DNA of 64,000 nucleotides from Xanthobacter autotrophicus (GTDB taxonomy: Bacteria; Pseudomonadota; Alphaproteobacteria; Rhizobiales; Xanthobacteraceae). The DNA is taken from the NCBI RefSeq assembly GCF_030015065.1, contig NZ_JAIVFN010000003.1, positions 1-64,000 of the forward strand, given 5' to 3'. Numbering within the stretch: position 1 is the first letter of the stretch; each line of letters starts with the position of its first letter. Positions 1-12,444 of this stretch are shown here, piece after piece. The position numbers and the translations under genes are program-made. Under the pieces are notes generated by a model that was given only the letters and a program-made list of their open reading frames with translations, did no database searches and was not told where the DNA came from.

Positions 1-66
1 GCCCTCGGCGGCAGAACGCCGGAGGAGGTCCATACGGCCTGCGACAGCATCGACATGGCGGCGTAA
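1..66 (+). pseudogene. IS3-family transposase (orfB/integrase), C-terminal end only
   Basis: The window opens inside a reading frame that ends in TAA at 64-66. The 21 visible residues begin ALGGRTPEEV, which resembles the end of the rve integrase domain of IS3-family OrfB proteins (a GRTP-E-V signature shortly before the C-terminus). The gene continues off the left edge, so neither completeness nor the IS subgroup can be judged. The assignment rests on this short motif and on the IS-like terminus that follows. Confidence 0.6.
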
Positions 67-127
67 CGCACACCAGAACCAAGCTTAGCAAAGCCGCCAA
101 TCTGTCCGCCAAACCGGGACCACCTCA
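1..127. mobile_element. Right end of an IS3-like insertion sequence
   Basis: After the transposase stop come about 60 non-coding bases ending in GGGACCACCTCA (116-127). A short non-coding tail finishing in CA is what an IS3-family right inverted repeat looks like. Immediately after position 127 the reading frame of hsdR is open and in phase, so the element boundary coincides with the point where recognisable HsdR sequence begins. The left end and any target-site duplication lie outside the window; GAG at 128-130 would be the right-hand copy of a 3-bp duplication. Confidence 0.55.
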
Positions 128-151
128 GAGATCGAGGCCCTGCGCCGCAAG

Positions 152-3058
152 GTGGCCGAGAGCGAGGATGCGGCCGCCGCCGCGCGGCGCGAGGCTGAAG
201 AGCATGCCCGCGCTCGCGAGACACTGGATGAGCGGCTGAGGCGGGAAGCCGAGGAGCGGGCGGCCTGGGAGCAGCTTGCCCAGGAGACGGAGGCCCAGAA
301 GACAGCGATCGCCGAGAAGCTGGCGAGCCTTCAGTCGCAGGCCGAGGCTGCTCCCCGTCAAGAAACGATGGAGCTTGTGGAGCGCGGCGAAGAGGCCGCT
401 GCCCGGCTTGAACTGGACGAGGCAGAGACCCGCGCACTCATCGACCAGCAGCTTCGGGACAGGGGTTGGGAAGCCGACACCAGGACCTTGCGCCACAGCG
501 CGGGCGTTCGGCCGGCAAAGAGCCGCAACATGGCCATCGCCGAATGGCCGACCGCAAACGGACGGGCGGACTATGCGCTGTTCGTCGGCACAACCCTCAT
601 GGGTGTCGTGGAGGCCAAGCGCCAGCGCAAGAGCGTCTCGGGGGCCATTGACCAATCCGAGCGCTATTCCATCGGCATCCGCGACGGCGACGATTTCGCT
701 TATGCCGGCGGGCCGTGGGGCGACCATCGCGTGCCGTTCGTCTTCGCCGCCAACGGGCGTTCCTACCTGAAGCAGATCGAGACCGAGAGTGGCATCTGGT
801 TTCGCGATACGCGCCGGGGAGCGAACCACCGCCGTGCCCTGGTGGACTGGCCCACGCCAGAGGGCCTGACGGGCCAACTGGAGGTGGATCAGGACGCGGC
901 CGATGCGGCCCTCAAGGTGCAGCCCTTCGTCTTCGGCTTCCCGCTCCGCCATTATCAGGAGAGCGCCATCCGGGCCGTGGAGGAGGCGCTGACGAACGAG
1001 CGTCGCTCCATGCTGGTGGCCATGGCCACGGGCACCGGCAAGACCAAGCTCGCCATTGCCCTGCTCTACCGGCTGTTGTCCGCCAAGCGCTTCCGTCGCA
1101 TCTGCTTCGTGGTGGATCGCTCCGCGCTCGGGCACCAGACCGAGGGCGAGTTCTCCACCACCAAGGTCGTCTCGGGTAAGACGTTCGCGGAAATCTTCGG
1201 GCTGAAGGGCCTCGACGACGTGACGCCCGACCTGGAGACGAAGGTCCACATCTGCACCATCCAGGGGCTGGTCAAGCGGGTGCTATATGCGGCCGATGGG
1301 TCCGAGGCGCCGCCCATCGACCAGTATGACCTCATGGTCATCGACGAATGCCACCGCGGCTATCTGCTCGACCGCGAGCTGTCCGACCCTGAACTCGGCT
1401 TCCGGGACGAAACCGACTACATCTCCAAATATCGCCGCGTGCTGGAATATTTCGACGCGGTGAAGATCGGCCTCACGGCCACCCCCGCCCTGCACACCAC
1501 GGACATCTTCGGCGAGCCGATCTTCCGCTATTCCTACCGCGAGGCGGTCATCGACGGCTTCCTGATCGACCACGAGCCGCCGGTGCGGATCGAAACCGCC
1601 TTGGCGCGGGCCGGCATTGTCTTCGCGCGGGAGGAGCAGCTCGACCTCTTGAACACCCAGACCGGCGAGGTCGACACCGCCACCCTGCCGGACGAAATCC
1701 GCTTCGAGGTGGAGCAGTTCAACAAGCAGGTCATCACGCCGGAGTTCAACCGCGTGGTCGCCGAGGAACTGGCCCGCCACATCGACCCGGCGCTTGACGG
1801 CAAGACCCTGATCTTCGCCGCCACCGACGCCCATGCGGACATGGTGGTGAACGCCATCAAGACCGCCTTCGCCGCGGAATATGGCGAGATCGACGATGCC
1901 GCCGTGAAGAAGATCACCGGCAGCGTGGACAAGGTGCAGAACCTCATCCGCTCCTTCCGCAACGACGCCAATCCGAAGATTGCCGTCACGGTGGACCTGC
2001 TCACCACCGGCATCGACGTGCCGAAGATCGTGAACCTCGTTTTCCTGCGCCGGGTGAACAGCCGCATTCTCTATGATCAGATGATCGGCCGGGCGACCCG
2101 GCGCTGCGACGAGATCGGCAAGGAGGTGTTCCGCATCTTCGACGCGGTGGACCTCTACCCCCACCTTCAGAACCTCACGGACATGAAGCCCGTGGTGGTC
2201 AACCCGTCCATCAGCTTTGCCCAGCTCGTCTCGGAGATGATCGGCGCCACCGACGATGCCCAGCGCGAGGTGATCCGCGACCAGCTTGTCGTCAAGCTGC
2301 GCCGCCGGATGAAGCAGATGCCCGAGGAGGCGCGGCAGCGGTTCGAGGCGGTGGCGGGCGAGACGCCGGAGGCCATGTTGCAGCGGCTCCGGTCGGGCGA
2401 GGCGCCAGCCCTCGCCGCGTGGCTCAAGGAGCGCTCAGCCATCGGGCCGATCCTCGACTGGCAGACGGACGGGGGGACCCCACAGCTCATTCCCATCTCG
2501 CCCCATGCCGACGAGATCGTCGCCGTCACCCGCGGTTACGGCACGGCCGCGCGGCCGGAGGACTTCCTCGACAGCTTCACCGCCTTCGTGCGCGACAACA
2601 TGAACACGATCGCCGCGCTGAAGCTGGTGGTGCAGCGCCCCCGTGACCTCACCCGCGCCGACCTCAAGGAATTGCGGCTCACCCTCGATCGCAAGGGCTA
2701 TTCGGAAGCGAACCTGCGCCGCGCCTGGGCCGATGCCAAGAATGAGGAGATCGCCGCCTCCATCATCGGCTTCGTCCGACAGGCCGCCATCGGCGATCCG
2801 CTGGTGCCCTACACCACCCGCGTGAAGGCCGCCATGCGCATCATCCTGGCGAGCCGCGCCTGGACGGAGCCGCAGAAGACGTGGTTGAAGCGCATCGGCG
2901 AGCAGATCGAGAGGGAAGTCGTGGTGGATCGCGAGGCCATCGACACCGGCCAGTTCTCGTCCCATGGCGGGTTCAGCCGGCTGAACAAGGTGTTCGGCGG
3001 AGAGCTTGAGAGCATCCTCGCCGGGATCAACGAAGAGATGTGGAAGAGAAGCGCCTGA
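152..3058 (+). CDS. hsdR: Type I restriction enzyme R subunit, N-terminus probably removed by an IS
   Basis: This is the ATP-dependent translocase/endonuclease subunit of a type I restriction system. From the N-terminus it shows a charged coiled coil (residues 1-85), the PD-(D/E)xK nuclease core with D and EAK (EAK near residue 153), Walker A GTGKTK near 293, a DECH box near 397, LTATP, and the motif VI region with GRATRR. The C-terminal helical domain is present. The GTG at 152 is only the first in-frame start; the frame is open from 89, across the IS junction at 127. Many homologues carry an additional N-terminal domain (DUF4145-like) before the coiled coil, and it is absent here. Only part of the protein is therefore encoded, and expression would depend on IS-derived signals. 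The stop overlaps the hsdM start (TGATG). Confidence 0.85.
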   Translation: MAESEDAAAAARREAEEHARARETLDERLRREAEERAAWEQLAQETEAQKTAIAEKLASLQSQAEAAPRQETMELVERGEEAAARLELDEAETRALIDQQLRDRGWEADTRTLRHSAGVRPAKSRNMAIAEWPTANGRADYALFVGTTLMGVVEAKRQRKSVSGAIDQSERYSIGIRDGDDFAYAGGPWGDHRVPFVFAANGRSYLKQIETESGIWFRDTRRGANHRRALVDWPTPEGLTGQLEVDQDAADAALKVQPFVFGFPLRHYQESAIRAVEEALTNERRSMLVAMATGTGKTKLAIALLYRLLSAKRFRRICFVVDRSALGHQTEGEFSTTKVVSGKTFAEIFGLKGLDDVTPDLETKVHICTIQGLVKRVLYAADGSEAPPIDQYDLMVIDECHRGYLLDRELSDPELGFRDETDYISKYRRVLEYFDAVKIGLTATPALHTTDIFGEPIFRYSYREAVIDGFLIDHEPPVRIETALARAGIVFAREEQLDLLNTQTGEVDTATLPDEIRFEVEQFNKQVITPEFNRVVAEELARHIDPALDGKTLIFAATDAHADMVVNAIKTAFAAEYGEIDDAAVKKITGSVDKVQNLIRSFRNDANPKIAVTVDLLTTGIDVPKIVNLVFLRRVNSRILYDQMIGRATRRCDEIGKEVFRIFDAVDLYPHLQNLTDMKPVVVNPSISFAQLVSEMIGATDDAQREVIRDQLVVKLRRRMKQMPEEARQRFEAVAGETPEAMLQRLRSGEAPALAAWLKERSAIGPILDWQTDGGTPQLIPISPHADEIVAVTRGYGTAARPEDFLDSFTAFVRDNMNTIAALKLVVQRPRDLTRADLKELRLTLDRKGYSEANLRRAWADAKNEEIAASIIGFVRQAAIGDPLVPYTTRVKAAMRIILASRAWTEPQKTWLKRIGEQIEREVVVDREAIDTGQFSSHGGFSRLNKVFGGELESILAGINEEMWKRSA

Positions 3059-4563
3059 TGACCACCTCGTCCACCCCCACTGCCAATATCGTGGCCAAGC
3101 TCTGGGGCCTCTGCCACGTGCTTCGCGACGATGGCGTCACGTACAATGAGTATGTCACCGAGCTGACCTACCTCCTGTTCCTCAAGATGCTGGAGGAGAC
3201 CGGTCACGAGGAGCGCCTGCCGGAAGGCTGGCGCTGGGGCCTTCTTGCGAAGAAGGAGGGCATGGAGCAGCTCGACTATTACAAGGCGATGCTGCTCGCC
3301 CTCGGCAAGGCTCCGGACAAGCTGGTTGGCGCCATCTTCACCGATGCCCAGACCAAGCTGCGCAAGCCCACGAACCTGAAGGCACTCACCTCCAGCATCG
3401 ACCTGCTGGATTGGTTCTCCGCCCGCGAGGAGGGGCTCGGCACCCTCTATGAGGGGCTGCTGGAAAAGAACGCGGCCGACAAGAAATCCGGCGCCGGGCA
3501 ATATTTCACGCCACGCCCCCTCATCGATTGCATCGTGCGGCTCATGAAGCCCCAGCCGGGGGAGATCGTGCAGGACCCGGCGGCCGGGACGGCCGGTTTT
3601 CTCGTCGCTGCCGATCGCTACATCAAGGACCGCACGGACGATCTTTTCGAGCTGACCGAGGCGCAAGGCTTCTTCCAGCGCAACAACGCCTTCGTGGGGG
3701 CCGAACTGGTGCCGGACACCCACCGCCTGTGCCTCATGAACCTGCTTCTGCATGGCATCGAGGGCGGGGTGGAGAACATGGACACCCTCTCGCCCGACGG
3801 CGAGGGGCTACCGAAAGCCCACCTCATCCTCACCAATCCGCCTTTCGGCACCAAGAAGGGCGGCGGGCGGCCCACGCGCACCGACTTTTCCGTGACGGCG
3901 GAGACCTCCAACAAGCAATTGGCCTTCGTGGAGCACATCGTGCGCGGCCTCATCCCCGGCGGACGCGCCGCCGTGGTGGTGCCGGACAATGTGCTGTTCG
4001 AGGACAATACCGGCCGGCGTCTGCGCACATGGCTCATGGAGCTGTGCAACCTGCACACCATCCTGCGGCTGCCCACCGGCATCTTCTACGCGCAGGGGGT
4101 GAAGACCAACGTGCTGTTCTTCCGGCGCGGCAAGAGCGACAAGGCCAACACCAAGGCGGTGTGGGTCTATGACATGCGGGCCAACATGCCCGCCTTCGGC
4201 AAGACCCGCCCCCTCACCATCGCCGATTTCGCCGCCTTCGAGGCCGCCTATGGGGATGATCCCAACGGCGGCGCGAAGCGGACGGACGAAGGTGAGGCAG
4301 GGAGCGCCGCAGGCGCGACAAGAAGCGAAAACGAAGTCCGCTGGCGCTGCTTCTCCCGCGCCGCCATCGCCGGGCGCAACGACAATCTCGACATCTCCTG
4401 GCTGCGCGATACCGAGGCCGAGGCCGAGGAAACCCTGACCGAGCCGGAAGACATCGCCGCCGCCCTCATCGGGCATCTCAAGGCCGCACTGGAGGAGATC
4501 GAGGCGCTGGCGGAAGAGCTGGAGCCGGAGGAGGCCGCCACCGTGGCGGAGGCGGCGGAATGA
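3058..4563 (+). CDS. hsdM: Type I restriction-modification methyltransferase (M subunit)
   Basis: N6-adenine DNA methyltransferase of the HsdM type, 501 residues. The N-terminal HsdM helical domain is followed by QYFTPR, the AdoMet-binding motif I DPAAGTAGF (near residue 172) and catalytic motif IV NPPF (near 259). The C-terminal tail is acidic and probably coiled coil. ATG at 3058 overlaps the hsdR stop (TGATG), which argues for translational coupling; an upstream in-frame GTG at 3040 would add six residues. It would act as M2S with the following HsdS, and with HsdR for restriction. All key motifs look intact, so modification activity is expected even if restriction is lost. Confidence 0.95.
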   Translation: MTTSSTPTANIVAKLWGLCHVLRDDGVTYNEYVTELTYLLFLKMLEETGHEERLPEGWRWGLLAKKEGMEQLDYYKAMLLALGKAPDKLVGAIFTDAQTKLRKPTNLKALTSSIDLLDWFSAREEGLGTLYEGLLEKNAADKKSGAGQYFTPRPLIDCIVRLMKPQPGEIVQDPAAGTAGFLVAADRYIKDRTDDLFELTEAQGFFQRNNAFVGAELVPDTHRLCLMNLLLHGIEGGVENMDTLSPDGEGLPKAHLILTNPPFGTKKGGGRPTRTDFSVTAETSNKQLAFVEHIVRGLIPGGRAAVVVPDNVLFEDNTGRRLRTWLMELCNLHTILRLPTGIFYAQGVKTNVLFFRRGKSDKANTKAVWVYDMRANMPAFGKTRPLTIADFAAFEAAYGDDPNGGAKRTDEGEAGSAAGATRSENEVRWRCFSRAAIAGRNDNLDISWLRDTEAEAEETLTEPEDIAAALIGHLKAALEEIEALAEELEPEEAATVAEAAE

Positions 4564-6038
4564 GCGGGCTGCCGAAGGGGTGGGTGGAGGCGCCGCTTTC
4601 ACAAGTGACAACTAAAATCGGCAGCGGCGCTACGCCGAAGGGCGGCCACACCGCCTACGCCACCTCGGGGACACCACTGATCCGATCGCAGAACGTCCAT
4701 TTCAGTGGATTCACCGATGTCGGTCTCGCCTATCTGGACGACGCGCAGGCGCGAAATCTGGACAGCGTGACCGTCCGACACGGCGATGTGCTTTTGAACA
4801 TCACCGGAGCTTCGATTGGACGCGTCACGCTTGCCCCGGAGCGGATGGACGGCGCCCGCGTCAATCAGCACGTGTCGATCATCCGACCAGCGGAGGGAAT
4901 GAACTCTGCCTTCATTGCCGGGTTTCTTGCCTCCCCATCCATGCAGCAACTCATCATTGCAGAGAACTACGGCGTGACCCGTCAGGCTCTCACGAAAGGA
5001 ATGATTGAGGCAATCAAACTGCCAGTTCCGCCTCTCCCCGAACAGCGGCGGATTGTGGCGAAGATCGACAGCCTGACGACCAAGTCCAGACGCGCCCGCG
5101 ATCACCTCGACCACATCCCCCGCCTCGTCGAGAAGTACAAACAGGCCATCCTCGCCGCCGCCTTCCGGGGGGATTTGACGCGGGAGTGGCGAGCGCGAAA
5201 GAGCGCCGATGATGTGTCCCCTGCCGCCCTTGAGGAGCTTAGAAAAGAAGCTTGGGGGACGTTCTCCGCCTCATCTCGCTACAGCGTGGCTGACGGCATT
5301 GACTGGCGGCCGGATATTGACTTGCCGCCCGGTTGGGTATGGGCGTCTGTCGATCAACTGTCGCACCTGATCCAGTACGGTAGCTCAGCGAAAACCAATG
5401 ACGATGAAACCGGTGTCGCTGTGCTGCGGATGGGAAATCTGCAAGGCGGCAGCCTCGACTTAAATTCTCTGAAATATCTGCCGCAGGATCATCACGAATT
5501 TCCCACCTTGCTATTGCAGAGGGGCGATGTGCTGTTCAACCGGACGAACAGCGCAGAACTCGTCGGTAAGACCGCTGTTTACGACGAGGAGCCAGCTCGG
5601 GCGTCGTTTGCTTCTTATCTCATTCGCATCAAGACCTGCGGATTTGTACCCCGTCTCCTGAGCGCCTACATCAATTCACATTACGGTAGGGAATGGGTCG
5701 CGTCAGTCGTCAACCAACAGGTTGGACAGGCGAACGTCAACGGCACCAAGCTGCGGCAGCTCGGCGTTCCCGTAATGCCTCTTGCCGAGCAAGCGGAACT
5801 GCTACACCGCATCGAAACCGCCTTCGCCTGGATCGACCGCCTCGCCGCCGAGGCCACCAGCGCCCGCAAGCTCATCGACCGGCTGGATCAGGCCGTGCTC
5901 GCCAAGGCCTTCCGCGGCGAACTGGTGCCGCAGGACCCCTCAGACGAGCCGGCGGGCATGCTGCTGGAGCGCATCCGGGCCGAGCGCGGCGCGGCGCCAA
6001 AGCCCCGGCGCGGGCGGCGGCCGGCGGCGGAGGCATGA
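4560..6038 (+). CDS. hsdS: Type I restriction-modification specificity (S) subunit
   Basis: DNA-recognition subunit, 492 residues. It has the expected two-repeat layout. Target recognition domain 1 (about residues 5-160) ends in a conserved region with LPEQRRIVAKID. Target recognition domain 2 begins at LPPGWVWASV and ends in LAEQAELLHRIE, and both are followed by helical spacers containing AAFRGDLT and KAFRGELV. The start overlaps the hsdM stop (ATGA at 4560-4563). The recognition domains are visibly less GC-rich than hsdM, as is usual for these horizontally shuffled modules. The recognised sequence cannot be inferred from this reading. Confidence 0.94.
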   Translation: MSGLPKGWVEAPLSQVTTKIGSGATPKGGHTAYATSGTPLIRSQNVHFSGFTDVGLAYLDDAQARNLDSVTVRHGDVLLNITGASIGRVTLAPERMDGARVNQHVSIIRPAEGMNSAFIAGFLASPSMQQLIIAENYGVTRQALTKGMIEAIKLPVPPLPEQRRIVAKIDSLTTKSRRARDHLDHIPRLVEKYKQAILAAAFRGDLTREWRARKSADDVSPAALEELRKEAWGTFSASSRYSVADGIDWRPDIDLPPGWVWASVDQLSHLIQYGSSAKTNDDETGVAVLRMGNLQGGSLDLNSLKYLPQDHHEFPTLLLQRGDVLFNRTNSAELVGKTAVYDEEPARASFASYLIRIKTCGFVPRLLSAYINSHYGREWVASVVNQQVGQANVNGTKLRQLGVPVMPLAEQAELLHRIETAFAWIDRLAAEATSARKLIDRLDQAVLAKAFRGELVPQDPSDEPAGMLLERIRAERGAAPKPRRGRRPAAEA

Positions 6039-6204: not shown

Positions 6205-6669
6205 TCACCTCATGGTCCGACGCACGCTGTCCAAATCTGCCCTGCAGAGCAGGCTGAATTGCACAAGTGGATCGGGGTCGAGGTTCTTGGACAAGGCCTC
6301 CGTCGCGAGCTGTCGAAGTTCGATGCTTGGTTTCAAGGAAATATCGACGATCGCGCGGAGCACCGCCTCCGCGGTGTCGACAACCTTGGGCGGAGCAAAG
6401 AACCTCATTCGGGTGATCAGTCCGATCAGGTGCTGCTCGTCTCCACTTAGCGTGAGCTCATCAATCGTATAAGCGCGTACAAGCAGCTGCGTTGCGTGCA
6501 TCACGAAATCTGCATAGACGATCTCACGCTTCGTTATTTCTGCGGCAATGCGCTGAAGACGATCTTGGCCGTGGTGCGTGTAGATGGCGGCGATCAGCGA
6601 GGCGCCGCCGCCGACAAGCGCTCCCAGCAATGCGGAAAGCGGGCTCAGGAATTCTGTGCTGATGCTCAT
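6205..6669 (-). CDS. Small membrane-anchored protein of unknown function, coupled to the RND pump
   Basis: A 154-residue protein with one glycine/alanine-rich hydrophobic N-terminal segment (about residues 8-30) followed by a soluble, mostly helical region without a motif I recognise. Its ATG (6669) overlaps the stop of the RND pump gene (ATGA), with a purine-rich ribosome site just upstream, so it is probably the third gene of the efflux operon. An upstream extension of the frame is open but lies inside the pump gene. It could be an accessory subunit of the pump or simply carried with it. It converges on hsdS. Confidence 0.65.
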   Translation of the reverse strand: MSISTEFLSPLSALLGALVGGGASLIAAIYTHHGQDRLQRIAAEITKREIVYADFVMHATQLLVRAYTIDELTLSGDEQHLIGLITRMRFFAPPKVVDTAEAVLRAIVDISLKPSIELRQLATEALSKNLDPDPLVQFSLLCRADLDSVRRTMR

Positions 6670-9600
6670 GCCCTCTCCAGGACGTCTTGTTGTGCAGAAT
6701 CCATTTTGCGGTCCTGAAGCGCCTCGGCGCGCGCCGGCGGCTCGGGCTCCCTGATGCGGAACCAGATCACATAGAGCGCCGGAAGAAATACGAGGGTCAG
6801 GAGCGTTGCCACTGCAAGACCGCCCATGATCGCGTAGGCCATCGGCCCCCAGAAGATTGTCGGCGCGATCGGGATCATGCCGAGGATCGCGGCGGCCGCG
6901 GTGAGCAGGATCGGTCGGAACCGGTGGGTGGTGGCCTCGACGACGGCGTCCCACGGATGCCGGCCGTGATCCCTTTCCCTCTCGATCTGATCAATGAGGA
7001 TCACCGAGTTCCGGACGATCATGCCGCTGAGGGCGAGCACCCCGAGGAGCGCCACGAAGCCCAGGGGCTTGTCCGAGGCGAGGAGGGCTGCGACGACCCC
7101 AATGAGGCCGAGCGGGGCGACGCTGACCACCAGAAACAGGCGGTTGAAGCTCTGGAGCTGGAGCATCAGCACAGTGAGCGCCAGGATGAGCATCAAGGGC
7201 ATGACGGCGGCGACCGACATTTGCGCCTTGTCACTCTCCTCCACCGTTCCACCGACATCGACATGGTAGCCGCTCGGCAGGCTGGCATTCAGGGCCGTGA
7301 ACTTCGGCGCCAAGGCCTGCACAACCGCTGCGGCCTGGGTGTCGGCCACCACATCGGCCTGGACCGTCACCGTGGGCTGGCGGTCCCGCCGCCAGACGAT
7401 GGGATATTCCTGACCATATTCGACGGAGGCAATCTGACTTAACGGAATGGTCCGCCCGTTCGGCAGCGGCACCTGAAGCATGCGGATCGTCGACAGCGAC
7501 ATGCGCTGCTCGGCGGCGCCCCGGATAACCACATCGACGAGATGGATGCCGCTGCGCAGCTGCGTTGCCGTGATGCCGGACACGACCGCGTGCACCGACT
7601 GGGCCAGATCCTGCGAGCTCAGGCCCAAAAGGCGCGCCTGATCCTGATCGACCTGGATCCTGACCGTGCGTGCCGGCTCGATCCAGTTGTAGTTGACGTT
7701 CTGGGCGCCAGGATCGGACCCGATGATCTGAGCGACCTTGAAGGCGATCGCCCGCACCTCTCCGGGCTCAGGTCCGCTCACCCGGTACTGGAGTGGCCAT
7801 CCCACCGGAGGTCCGAGCTCGAGCGGGTAGACCCGCCCGACGACATTCGGGAACTCGCTCGCCAGCGCGTGCTCCAGCTTCGCCTTGACCCGCTCGCGCT
7901 GCTCCAGCCCCTTGGTGACGATCACGTGCTGGGCAAAAAAATCATTGGGGAGCTGGACGTTGAGGGGCAGATAGAAGCGCACGGCGCCCTGCCCGACATA
8001 GGTGCTCCAGTGCTCCACGTCCTGGTCGCCTTCGAGCAGCCTGTCCAGCCGCGCCGAGACCTCCCGGGCCGCGGAGATCGACGCGTTGTCGGGCAGCTGC
8101 AGGTCCACCAGCAGTTCGGGCCGGTCGGAGGGCGGGAAGAATTGCTGCGGAACGAAGCGCATGCCGTAGAGCGCGGCCCCGAACAGGCCGAGCGTGACGA
8201 GGACCGTGGCCCAGCGTGCCCGCATCGCCAGCAGGAGAAGGCGGCGGAACCTGCGCAGGATCGGGCCCGGCTCCTCGGAGTGCGCCGTTCTCGGCTTCTT
8301 GAGAATCCAGACGCCGAGCAGGGGCGCGAAGAGCACCGCGACGATCCAGGAGGCGATCAGCGCGATCGCGACCACGGCGAAGATCGAGAAGGTGTACTCG
8401 CCTGCGGCGCTGTGCGCGAAGCCGATGGGGACAAACCCCGCGACGGTGACCAGCGTGCCCGTGAGCATGGGCACGGCGGTCGAGGTGAAGGCAAAGGACG
8501 CGGCCCGCTGCTTGTCGTCGCCGCGCTCCAGCCGGGTGACCATCGTCTCCACGGTGATCATGGCATCATCGACCAGCAAGCCGAGCGCGATGATGAGGGC
8601 GCCCAGCGAGATGCGCTGCAGGTCGATCCCGAAGAACTCCATTGCGACGAACACCGCGGCAAGGACGAGCGGGATCGCGATGGCCACCACGGCACCCGCG
8701 CGCATGCCAAGGCTGAGCAGGCTGACCGCAAGCACAATGGCGACGGCCTCCCAAAGCGCCTCCATGAATTCATCGACGGCATGCTCGACGGTCACGGGCT
8801 GGTCTGCGATGAACGTCGGCTCGACCCCCATGGGCAGCGCCGAGTTGATTTTCGTCATGGCCTGGGCGACGTTATGGCCGAGAGCGAGGACGTCGCCGCC
8901 CTTGCGCATGGCGATAGCAAGACCGATGCCGTCGCGCCCCTTGACGCGGAATATTGGCTGCGCAGGATCGGCAGGACCGCGTGTGACGCGCCCGATGTCA
9001 CCAAGGCGTATCATCCTGTCATTGGCGACGAAGTTGACGGCCAAGATGTCCTGCTCGGACTGAAACGCACCCGAGACGCGCACGAGGATCTTCTCGTCCC
9101 CGGTCTGCACCACGCCCGCGGGAATGACCGCGTTTTGGGCCAGCAGGGCGGCGACCAGCGAGGTGCGGTTGAGTCCGAGCCCCGCCAGCTTCTCTGTCGA
9201 GAACTCCACATAGACCCGTTCGTCCTGGGCGCCGAGGACGTCGATCTTCGAGATATCTTGCAGTTGGAGGAGCTGTTTGCGGATGTCTTCGACGCGGTCC
9301 CTCAACTCGCGATGGGTGAATCCGTCCGCGGTGAAGCCGTAGACGATGCCGTAGGTATCGCCGAACTCGTCGTTGAAGCCGGGACCGACGATTCCCTGGG
9401 GCAAGGTGTTGCGGATGTCCCCTACCTTCTTGCGCACCTGGTACCAGATGTCGGCGACCCTTTCTGGCGACGTCGAATCCTTCAGGTTGACGAAGATCGT
9501 CGTCTGGCCCGCCGTCGTGTAGCTCTTCAGGTGATCCAGGTTGGGCGTCTCCTGAAGCTTGCGCTCAAGACGGTCCGTGATCTGCTCGATCGTGTCGCCG

Positions 9601-9776
9601 ACGGTGGCGCCCGGCCATCCAGCCTGCACGACCATCGTCTTGACGGAAAAATCCGGATCCTCGCTGCGTCCGAGCCGGAGATAGGAGCTGATGCCCGCGA
9701 CGATAATGACGAGCATGAAATAGGTCACAACGGAACGATGACCGAGAGCCCATTCAGAAAGGTTGAAGCGCTTCAT
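6666..9776 (-). CDS. RND-family efflux transporter, inner-membrane pump
   Basis: Proton-driven efflux pump of the resistance-nodulation-division superfamily, 1036 residues, the usual length. It has the first transmembrane helix after MKRFNLSEWAL, two large periplasmic loops, and the proton-relay helix motif with paired aspartates in LLVDDAMITVE (near residue 400). A late helix block resembles the second half of AcrB-type proteins. The ATG at 9776 overlaps the stop of the membrane fusion protein gene (ATGA); the open frame upstream of it is antisense noise. No outer-membrane channel gene is adjacent, so it would have to borrow a TolC-like partner. Substrate range is not predictable from sequence. 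Confidence 0.93.
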   Translation of the reverse strand: MKRFNLSEWALGHRSVVTYFMLVIIVAGISSYLRLGRSEDPDFSVKTMVVQAGWPGATVGDTIEQITDRLERKLQETPNLDHLKSYTTAGQTTIFVNLKDSTSPERVADIWYQVRKKVGDIRNTLPQGIVGPGFNDEFGDTYGIVYGFTADGFTHRELRDRVEDIRKQLLQLQDISKIDVLGAQDERVYVEFSTEKLAGLGLNRTSLVAALLAQNAVIPAGVVQTGDEKILVRVSGAFQSEQDILAVNFVANDRMIRLGDIGRVTRGPADPAQPIFRVKGRDGIGLAIAMRKGGDVLALGHNVAQAMTKINSALPMGVEPTFIADQPVTVEHAVDEFMEALWEAVAIVLAVSLLSLGMRAGAVVAIAIPLVLAAVFVAMEFFGIDLQRISLGALIIALGLLVDDAMITVETMVTRLERGDDKQRAASFAFTSTAVPMLTGTLVTVAGFVPIGFAHSAAGEYTFSIFAVVAIALIASWIVAVLFAPLLGVWILKKPRTAHSEEPGPILRRFRRLLLLAMRARWATVLVTLGLFGAALYGMRFVPQQFFPPSDRPELLVDLQLPDNASISAAREVSARLDRLLEGDQDVEHWSTYVGQGAVRFYLPLNVQLPNDFFAQHVIVTKGLEQRERVKAKLEHALASEFPNVVGRVYPLELGPPVGWPLQYRVSGPEPGEVRAIAFKVAQIIGSDPGAQNVNYNWIEPARTVRIQVDQDQARLLGLSSQDLAQSVHAVVSGITATQLRSGIHLVDVVIRGAAEQRMSLSTIRMLQVPLPNGRTIPLSQIASVEYGQEYPIVWRRDRQPTVTVQADVVADTQAAAVVQALAPKFTALNASLPSGYHVDVGGTVEESDKAQMSVAAVMPLMLILALTVLMLQLQSFNRLFLVVSVAPLGLIGVVAALLASDKPLGFVALLGVLALSGMIVRNSVILIDQIERERDHGRHPWDAVVEATTHRFRPILLTAAAAILGMIPIAPTIFWGPMAYAIMGGLAVATLLTLVFLPALYVIWFRIREPEPPARAEALQDRKMDSAQQDVLERA

Positions 9777-10852
9777 GAGGCAGCTCCCGACAGGCGGACC
9801 TTCTGGCCGGGGCGCAAGGCGTGCACGCCAGCGGTGACGACGAGTTCGCCGGTTTCCAGTCCCCCTGAGATCACAACCATCGCCTGATCGTAGCGCAGCA
9901 CGTCCACCCTGCGCAGGGACACGGTCTGGCTCTGCGGATCGACCACCCAAACCGCCGGTCCCGCGTTCGCCTCGGTCAGCGCGCTCGCCGGCACCTCGAT
10001 CCCCGGAGGTGGGGCCAGCCGGATTTTTCCGGTCACGGTCGACCCCAGATGCATGGCCTCCGGCGGATCCATGATCTCGACCTTCACCTGGAAGGTCCGG
10101 GTGACGGAATCCGCCTGAGGCGCCACTTCGCGGACCCGCCCGGTGGCTCTCACCTTCGGGTCGTCGGTAAGCGCGATCTCGACGGGCACGTCGCGCGGGC
10201 TCGTCCTTATGATCTGCTCGGAGACGTCGAAGACGGCGTCGCGCCCGCCTTGGCGCGCGACCTCCACGACCATTTGGCCGGCGCGGATAACTTCGCCCGG
10301 TTCGGCGCCGACCGCGGTAACCGCGCCCGCGCCATCGGCGGACAAGACCGTATAGCTCAGCTGATCCTGAGCGGTGTGCAGCTGTGCCTGAGCGGACTCC
10401 ACCTGGGCCTCGGCGGACCGCAGGCTCTGCACTGCTTCATCAAATCTTGCGCGTGTGGCCCAGCCGCCCTTCGAGAGCTGCTCCTGGCGCTGGTAAGTCA
10501 GGCGAGCCTGGGTCAGCACCGCCTGAGCCGACGCAAGGTTTGCTTGCGCCGTGCGCAACGCATTCTGCTGGTTATTGGCGTCGAGCCGGGCGACGACTTG
10601 GCCTGGCGAAACCACATCGCCCACACGAATAGACCGTTCGATCATGCGCCCATCGAGGCGGAACGCCAGGCTGACCTGGTCCTTGGCACGAACTTGGCCC
10701 GTCAGCGAGACGGTCTCGCCTTCCGCGCTGCCCCCGACGGCGAGCGTCCGGACAGGGCGGGCTTGGGTATTGGGTGAGGCCGCCTCGTCGCAGCCCATGA
10801 CGGTCGCCGCCATCAAGATGGCCCCTATTATCCGAAACTTGAGCATTGGCAT
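9773..10852 (-). CDS. RND efflux periplasmic adaptor (membrane fusion protein), lipoprotein
   Basis: Adaptor linking the RND pump to an outer-membrane channel, 359 residues. The N-terminus is a lipoprotein signal peptide with a lipobox-like VMGC. It is followed by the split lipoyl/barrel-sandwich region, an alpha-hairpin rich in A, Q and L (about residues 95-170) and beta-barrel and membrane-proximal domains. ATG 10852 is preceded by GGAAG at good spacing; an ATG six bases later is the alternative. It is the first gene of the efflux operon, divergent from a TetR gene, and overlaps the pump gene by four bases. Confidence 0.92.
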   Translation of the reverse strand: MPMLKFRIIGAILMAATVMGCDEAASPNTQARPVRTLAVGGSAEGETVSLTGQVRAKDQVSLAFRLDGRMIERSIRVGDVVSPGQVVARLDANNQQNALRTAQANLASAQAVLTQARLTYQRQEQLSKGGWATRARFDEAVQSLRSAEAQVESAQAQLHTAQDQLSYTVLSADGAGAVTAVGAEPGEVIRAGQMVVEVARQGGRDAVFDVSEQIIRTSPRDVPVEIALTDDPKVRATGRVREVAPQADSVTRTFQVKVEIMDPPEAMHLGSTVTGKIRLAPPPGIEVPASALTEANAGPAVWVVDPQSQTVSLRRVDVLRYDQAMVVISGGLETGELVVTAGVHALRPGQKVRLSGAAS

Positions 10853-10937
10853 CGTCTTCCGCTGGGAGCCGTAGTGCGCTGCCTCGCAAGGGAAAAAGGA
10901 CGAAGGTCCGATTTCCCCGATCCGGCCCTTGGATTGC

Positions 10938-10977
10938 ATTGCACTGTGCAATATAATTATATGCACTTATCAGTGCA
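10938..10977. promoter_or_regulatory. Paired operator-like palindromes between efflux operon and tetR
   Basis: Two inverted repeats share the core ATTGCACTG. Site 1, 10938-10952, is a perfect palindrome with arms ATTGCAC/GTGCAAT around one base. Site 2, 10962-10977, has arms TGCACT/AGTGCA separated by four bases. They sit in the AT-rich 139-bp divergent region, 15 bp from the tetR start and about 85 bp from the adaptor start. That is the expected place for autoregulation and repression of the pump by the TetR protein. Binding by that protein is inferred. Confidence 0.75.
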
Positions 10978-10991
10978 ATAGGGGAATTTGG

Positions 10992-11621
10992 ATGAACGCT
11001 CGCAACGTGTCGAAGGAGGCGCTACAGAAAGCCCGGCGCGGCGGATCGCGGGACGCCATAGTCGAGGCCGCCGAGCGCCTGTTCCTGGAGCGAGGCTTCG
11101 GCGCGGTGAGTATGGACGAGCTCGCCGAGGCGGCGGGCGTGGCGCGGCGCACCCTCTACAATCAGTTTTCGAGCAAGGAAGAGATCTTTCGAGAGATGCT
11201 CCGACGGGTGTCGCATCAGCTCGAGGACACGTTTCCGCCCGGCATCGAAACCCGAGGCGACGTCGAGGACTTCCTGCGCCTGATCGCGCGGATGATCCTG
11301 GAGCTCCACAAGCACCGGGGATATCTCGGATTCTTGCGCATGGTGGTGGCCGACTCGCGCCAGTTTCCCTGGATCGCCGCGGAATTCGCAACCGTCATGG
11401 ACCCTCAAACGGAGCGGCTCACGCGGTATCTCGCCCATCTGACGGCCATGGGCATCCTGGCTTGTCCCAATCCCATGCTGGCGGCCCACCAATTCATGGG
11501 CATGCTCAACGAGTTGTCGCTCTGGCCCTGGATGATGGGTCGTGAAAGCCTGCCCATCTCGACCGATGAGGCGGTCGAAGAGACCATCCGCATGTTCCTG
11601 CAGCGTTACAGGCATCCATGA
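10992..11621 (+). CDS. TetR/AcrR-family repressor of the adjacent RND efflux operon
   Basis: A 209-residue TetR-type regulator. The N-terminal helix-turn-helix (about residues 20-65) contains the typical AAERLFLERGFGAVSMDELA and a recognition helix ending GVARRTLYNQFSSKEE. The C-terminal ligand-binding domain is aromatic- and methionine-rich. ATG 10992 lies 5 bases after an AGGGGAA stretch; an earlier in-frame start at 10929 would place the operators inside the coding region and is less likely. It diverges from the efflux operon, the classic arrangement for a drug-responsive local repressor. Confidence 0.9.
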   Translation: MNARNVSKEALQKARRGGSRDAIVEAAERLFLERGFGAVSMDELAEAAGVARRTLYNQFSSKEEIFREMLRRVSHQLEDTFPPGIETRGDVEDFLRLIARMILELHKHRGYLGFLRMVVADSRQFPWIAAEFATVMDPQTERLTRYLAHLTAMGILACPNPMLAAHQFMGMLNELSLWPWMMGRESLPISTDEAVEETIRMFLQRYRHP

Positions 11622-11865
11622 TTGGCCGACCAGCACCCCAGCGACTGGCTGGGCTACGGCTCCAGCGCAGCTTCACCCGCGCCGTCCGCCGCTGGACCTC
11701 CGCCCCGCCCACCACCTGCGCAAGGGCAAGGAAGGCGGCTGACGCCAAGCCGCGGGACCCGACGGCGCCCCCGACGCCGAGACCCGGCTCCGGCACCGGT
11801 GCTATAAGCGGGGGCGGTTCGAGATAATGCGCGCCAAGCGCGCCACCGGACAAGGAGGGCACCCC

Positions 11866-12429
11866 ATGCGTTCGAAACACTGGCTCCTCGCAGCTTCGGC
11901 CCTGATCGCGGCCACTCCCGTCGCTATGGCCCAGGCCCAAACCCAGGCCCCGGCGGCGCCCGCCGCAGCCCCGGCACCCACCGTCGTGAAGGCCGACATC
12001 ATCGGCAATAGCGGCAAGTCCATCGGCACCGTCACCGCCACCGGGACCGACCGCGTCACCATCGTGCGCCTTGTCCTTCAGCCCGGCGCGACGACGCCCG
12101 GCTGGCACGGCATCCACTTCCACGCCGTCGCCGACTGCTCGGACACCGAGAAGTTCCTGGCGTCCAAGGCCCATGTGAACCATGGCGGCAAGGCCCATGG
12201 CCTGCTCAACCCCAACGGGCCGGATGAAGGCGACCTGCCCAACATCTTCGCCGTCGCCGATGGGTCGGTGTCGGCCGAGGTGACGAGCCCGGTGGGCCTC
12301 ACCGGCGCCCGCGGCCTGCTGACCCCGGCGGGCTTCGCCCTGGTGATCCATGCCAGCCCCGACGACCACACCACCCAGCCCATCGGCGGCGCCGGCGCGC
12401 GCATCGCCTGCGCCGCGTTCAAGCCCTGA
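11866..12429 (+). CDS. sodC: Secreted Cu/Zn superoxide dismutase-like protein
   Basis: 187 residues with a signal peptide (cleavage probably after VAMAQA) and a low-complexity Ala/Pro linker. The Cu/Zn-SOD fold follows, with the Cu-ligand motif HGIHFH (near residue 82), the disulphide cysteines in ADCSD and IACAAF, KAHGLLNP, GDLPN and the late Cu-ligand region VIHASPDDH. The product would dismutate superoxide in the periplasm. The usual Zn-ligand histidine in the GPHxGD motif is an aspartate here (GPDEGD), so metal occupancy may differ. ATG 11866 has a strong AAGGAGGG ribosome site. The 244 bases between tetR and this gene hold no convincing gene. Confidence 0.85.
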   Translation: MRSKHWLLAASALIAATPVAMAQAQTQAPAAPAAAPAPTVVKADIIGNSGKSIGTVTATGTDRVTIVRLVLQPGATTPGWHGIHFHAVADCSDTEKFLASKAHVNHGGKAHGLLNPNGPDEGDLPNIFAVADGSVSAEVTSPVGLTGARGLLTPAGFALVIHASPDDHTTQPIGGAGARIACAAFKP

Positions 12430-12444
12430 GGCGCGGGGACCACG

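Follow-up and report, generated by a model that had tools for sequence, protein, structure and literature searches.

An IS3-like element appears to interrupt hsdR of an EcoKI-like restriction-modification operon in Xanthobacter autotrophicus, probably at the cost of restriction and possibly with survival of methylation

Introduction

Type IA restriction-modification (RM) systems such as EcoKI of Escherichia coli have their genes in the order hsdR-hsdM-hsdS. The EcoKI HsdR protein (NCBIfam NF008521) is composed of an N-terminal DUF4145-like region followed by HSDR_N, ResIII plus Helicase_C, and EcoEI_R_C domains. In a passage of a review, the N-terminal extension of EcoKI HsdR is called required, and a second promoter is placed before hsdM (PMC12707154). 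This promoter lies in the gap of about 200 bases that separates hsdR from hsdM in EcoKI. A study of HEPN domains counts DUF4145 in the HEPN superfamily, describes such domains fused to EcoEI-like helicases, and proposes the HEPN domains of restriction systems as suicide RNases (PMC3710099). Disruptions and scrambled gene organizations are common in type I systems according to a section of another review (PMC3874165), and a truncated hsdR is described in a portion of a report on Staphylococcus epidermidis (PMC6918075).

Here, we describe an RM operon with the EcoKI gene order at the start of a 64,000-base stretch of Xanthobacter autotrophicus DNA (hereafter the window), with which contig C3 (NZ_JAIVFN010000003.1) of a 594-contig draft genome begins. 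The domains of its HsdR follow the EcoKI order after the point of interruption, but the first 148 residues are missing, and its hsdR and hsdM overlap where those of EcoKI are spaced apart. We consider it likely that an IS3-like insertion in hsdR of this type IA operon severed the gene, with loss of restriction and, if the operon is still transcribed, retention of methylation by the M2S complex. The locus is an ordinary IS disruption of a known system, in a new instance.

The IS3-like Element at the Contig Edge

The first 127 bases of the window form the right end of an IS3-like element (this and the features described up to position 6038 lie on the + strand). Bases 1-66 translate as ALGGRTPEEVHTACDSIDMAA followed by a stop, the last 21 codons of an IS3-like transposase (OrfB), and resemble the C-terminus of IS3-type transposases; bases 67-127 are non-coding and close with the terminal inverted repeat GGGACCACCTCA at 116-127. 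Bases 1-127 stand, at 98-100% identity, at eight contig edges of this genome, of which the window start is one, and in all eight readable right ends the sequence differs from base 128 on. Because every copy diverges at 127/128, position 127 is the real end of the element. The inverted left end TGAGGTGGTCCC is found 13 times at contig edges of this genome, where the left ends read TGAGGTGGTCCCCG...; inverted terminal repeats are present, since the 13 left ends start with TGAGGTGGTCC and the eight right ends finish with GGACCACCTCA. The initial annotation, which had placed a transposase-like C-terminus up to 66 and an IS-like terminus at 127, is thus borne out on both points. Each of the 21 readable element ends breaks off 127 bases into the element, the start of the window being itself a contig edge, and these equal cuts fit an assembler with k = 127 that breaks at the repeat. 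The 13 left against eight right ends suggest that some element ends are hidden.

The 127 bases also match annotated IS3-family elements in other bacteria, and the top three plasmid matches are Azospirillum sequences annotated as IS3 family transposase (77.7-78.5% identical). In these plasmid elements (e.g., NZ_CP032326.1, L019) the right end is 78.5% identical over 127 bases and the inverted ends are alike. The L019 element has two transposase frames (OrfA/OrfB), of which OrfB matches the NCBIfam IS3 model, whereas in the window copy 21 transposase codons are readable and the interior is not. The closest match to the IS interior in the readable contigs of the X. autotrophicus genome is a 69% relative on C32. 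C89 (L170, 19,990 bases) is the sole contig observed to have a left IS end on either edge; it holds a 19.7-kb stretch between two inverted copies, and the flanking 4-mers do not match.

A target-site duplication of 4 bp is typical of the IS407 group of the IS3 family. When the eight right ends are compared with the 13 left ends, three of the eight have the same flanking 4 bp as one of the 13 (C39/C155, C148/C96, and C55/C32), against a mean of 0.63 four-bp pairs at random positions and three or more pairs in 2.2% of trials. For the pair C39/C155, Pfam finds HTH_Tnp_Mu_1 in the left flank and HTH_Tnp_Mu_2 and DDE_2 in the right flank, all in one frame; these are successive domains of a Mu-type transposase. 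The element copy at these edges (L003, L042) seems to have split a gene for a Mu-type phage transposase and to have duplicated CTGG. The flanks of C148/C96 form one open frame in which, by eye, one flank shows a P-loop and the other a Walker-B-like stretch; Pfam assigns no domain above the cut-off to either half. Open-frame length does not separate matched from unmatched pairs (20, 47, and 33 of the 101 unmatched pairs are equally long, the 47 belonging to C148/C96). The element appears to duplicate 4 bp, not 3 bp, and the window copy of the duplication, first placed at 128-130, would then be GAGA at 128-131. The three-base alternative, GAG at 128-130, matches the left end on C28. By eye, however, the genes on that contig look like TypA and an oxidoreductase, with no hsdR among them, and the match is taken as chance.

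The Interrupted hsdR and Its Full-Length Relatives

The hsdR remnant (128-3058, 976 codons) is delimited by Pfam, by NCBIfam NF008521 and by alignment with Xanthobacter oligotrophicus, and its frame is open throughout. Against NF008521, the EcoKI-type HsdR model, it scores 1450.2 bits (cut-off 729) and covers model positions 148-1122 of 1123, which leaves the N-terminal extension incomplete; the match starts at model position 4 in the intact HsdR of X. oligotrophicus and at position 1 in EcoKI. Judged by these matches, the window protein is a broken member of the EcoKI-type (type IA) HsdR family. The remnant contains a coiled coil (read by eye, within 128-3058), a PD-(D/E)xK nuclease (D at 569, E..K at 611-619) and an SF2 motor (Walker A at 1025, DECH at 1343), and all catalytic motifs looked for are intact. 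Pfam assigns HSDR_N, which is partial both here and in the intact relative, together with ResIII, Helicase_C, and the C-terminal EcoEI_R_C domain.

The hsdRMS locus of X. oligotrophicus 29k (NZ_VTTL01000002.1, L083) is 90.4% identical in DNA over window positions 128-4587, and its HsdR is 94% identical to the remnant. The DNA alignment starts exactly at window position 128, and the hsdR of strain 29k, which is full length, has its start codon 148 codons earlier. The earlier reading of hsdR as in frame from 128 and interrupted by the IS is therefore upheld. The hsdS genes match partly and 5-12 kb of the downstream side differ, but window positions 11777-12432 again match strain 29k (84%), about 12 kb beyond its hsdS. 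Two stretches within 11650-12432 match DNA of this genome (G106) about 6 and 12 kb downstream of hsdS. On this alignment, the two RM operons may share a genomic location. Between the operon and these stretches, at 6666-11621, the window has genes that read as an RND efflux pump, a membrane-fusion-protein-like component and a TetR-type regulator. The best match to the pump in other genomes of the genus is 62% identical, so that this region looks accessory. Another genome of the genus (G104; L165, L166) has about 620 additional bases between hsdR and hsdM, two genes that overlap in the window.

The absence of an N-terminal domain, also suspected at the outset, is confirmed by comparison with other bacteria. 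Among the best 80 of 559 relatives, confirmed in the genome collection, 77 carry the additional domain upstream, in one open frame with the rest of the gene (68 of them almost in full, nine as shorter matches), so that full-length homologues extend upstream of the residue at which the remnant begins. The three exceptions are a gene cut by a contig edge (L095), one with a broken frame (L128) and one with the domain in another frame (L137). Within the genus, four of 14 genomes have a match: two full-length proteins, the truncated protein of the window and a distant 36% relative. A second HsdR-like protein of the X. autotrophicus genome (C4:87971-89239, L010) is 32% identical and has an open frame of 799 codons.

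The Severed N-Terminal Domain

In the relatives, the missing 148-codon part is a DUF4145 domain by Pfam. EcoKI HsdR is co-linear from its N terminus onward (39% identity, with a profile probability of 99.8 for the N-terminal part), and its own N-terminal region has a DUF4145 score below the Pfam cut-off. An AlphaFold2 model of the domain built from 41 relatives has a pLDDT of 91.7. Its best VIA match is a HEPN domain of solved structure (Z 14.2 over 115 residues, 2.5 A), a Z that helical models can reach by chance; four of the eight best VIA rows are named HEPN. In Foldseek, the 12 top rows have probabilities of 0.98-1.00, although E is never below 0.09. The model thus points to a HEPN-like fold, and in this fold and in the DUF4145 match the severed domain resembles the fused HEPN-helicase proteins treated in the study cited above (PMC3710099).

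In the 41 rows chosen for the alignment, R87, G90, N91, A93, and H95 are invariant, and the R and H are present in all of the 68 nearly complete relatives except L079, which has K for R. The two residues are spaced R-x7-H. The usual HEPN catalytic motif is Rx4-6H, one residue shorter at its longest, and an RNase activity of the domain is therefore not established.

Proposed Explanation and Its Alternatives

In the explanation that we favor, an IS3-like element would have inserted between hsdR codons 148 and 149 (X. oligotrophicus count) with its transposase co-directional with hsdR. The R subunit would then lack the N-terminal extension that EcoKI reportedly needs, so that restriction is probably lost. 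Transcription of the hsdR remnant, hsdM and hsdS would from then on rely either on transcripts that run out of the element or on hidden promoters inside the operon; given either, M2S would methylate DNA without restriction. Our best inference from the sequence is that restriction has been lost and that methylation may survive, and a modification-only system is the likeliest consequence of the interruption.

One alternative is a deletion or rearrangement next to the IS, by which the hsdR 5' part and its promoter were not just separated from the remnant but removed altogether or transferred to another place in the genome; this is possible, though we hold it only tentatively. A search with the N-terminal protein, which found matches in five of five control genomes, detects the hsdR 5' part on none of the readable contigs of the X. 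autotrophicus genome. With 1031 bases of X. oligotrophicus upstream and 5' DNA as query, the only match beyond chance level is formed by the 29 bases that follow the junction (E 0.0044); all others, with 40 of the 67 candidates scored, have E values of 0.015 or higher. The GAGA flank is likewise absent from all 13 readable left ends. These absences from the readable contigs count against a simple insertion, but the short contigs leave room for it: 67 of the 68 stretches fetched from C200-C594 (66 contigs of at most 2,780 bases, a control contig included) read as N, with C200 (4,602 bases) as the only readable one. Separation and deletion of the hsdR 5' part are consequently not distinguishable, and the missing part may lie on a short contig that reads as N. 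Moreover, as a readable 4-bp partner is found for only three of the eight right ends, a missing partner is the usual state.

A resolvase gene bears on the same question. It lies upstream of hsdR by about 60 bases in G104 and by about 900 bases, with another gene between, in G106, and has a match in nine of the best 80 relatives (of 559), a close one in X. oligotrophicus only. Among the readable contigs of the X. autotrophicus genome, the single full match is on C148, with a 149-base partial match on C133. Since C148 starts with a right IS end and the resolvase is 400 bases away, this arrangement favors a rearrangement. We nevertheless do not favor C148 as the far border of a deletion between two IS copies in inverted orientation: its GTAG flank has a partner in the left end on C96, an indication of a separate insertion there. 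C148 (L169) carries two serine recombinase genes, at 530-1174 and 3950-5611, the first of them close to the resolvase upstream of hsdR in the two relatives.

A second alternative concerns the genes downstream. In the window, hsdM (3058-4563; Pfam N6_Mtase and HsdM_N, motifs DPAAGTAGF and NPPF) and hsdS (4560-6038; Pfam Methylase_S at residues 5-174, PADLOC Specificity_I over nearly the whole length) are adjacent and full length, as a type I RM gene set requires. HsdS aligns with that of a relative over residues 1-491 of 492 (37% identity), and the initial description of both genes as intact agrees with Pfam, with PADLOC and with the full-length alignments to relatives. Across four compared loci HsdM is 80-82% identical in two and 79% and 54% in the others; HsdS is 28-37% identical to its counterparts in four relatives, against 54-82% for HsdM, as expected from exchange of recognition domains. 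With the upstream operon promoter severed too, however, methylation could also be lost, and hsdR', hsdM and hsdS would then all be silent; we regard this as a possibility of the lesser kind. The hsdM ATG overlaps the hsdR stop (TGATG), and a scan for consensus sigma-70 promoters gives none in bases 1-600 or in 2400-3100, upstream of hsdM, although such a scan covers alphaproteobacterial promoters poorly. Against silence, the transposase of the element reads toward hsdR in the same direction, and EcoKI has a second promoter before hsdM in the review passage mentioned above (PMC12707154).

It is improbable that the remnant still restricts from a start at GTG 152 or ATG 368 as an R subunit that has lost the N-terminal domain and kept the nuclease, motor and C-terminal domains: the motifs are intact, dN/dS is low and the three distant HsdRs without the domain all have their first possible start near residue 90 of the remnant (their existence counts against our explanation, as it shows that a nuclease-motor core can do without the domain), but these proteins are only 28-32% identical, the window protein belongs with EcoKI, whose extension is reported as required (PMC12707154), and by eye no strong ribosome-binding site is recognised before either start. 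In the reading frame of the remnant, a stop lies inside the IS at 86-88, and GTG 152 is the first in-frame ATG, GTG or TTG after it, with ATG 368 later.

The own-branch dN/dS of the remnant is 0.096, against 0.076 and 0.059 on two intact branches, and the corresponding hsdM values are 0.074 (own), 0.060, and 0.166; these are counting estimates on three sequences and are compatible with a recent relaxation. There is no clear decay in the remnant, which implies that the insertion is recent or that the remnant is kept. It also counts against our explanation that the remnant has a dN/dS slightly above that of both intact hsdR branches.

Conclusion

For annotation, the hsdR of this operon is best filed as IS-disrupted, and the host is not to be assumed to restrict foreign DNA by this system. 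The locus illustrates that the N-terminal HEPN-like domain of EcoKI-type R subunits, the role of which is poorly understood, can be removed without damage to the remainder of the gene. As the insertion falls just after this domain and before the nuclease-motor body, it might amount to a natural experiment, with either a working R subunit that lacks the domain or a HEPN domain made, free of its partner, from the parted 5' end; we think this quite unlikely. Either case, if true, would test whether the head of EcoKI-type R subunits acts as a toxin, has a structural role or serves in assembly.
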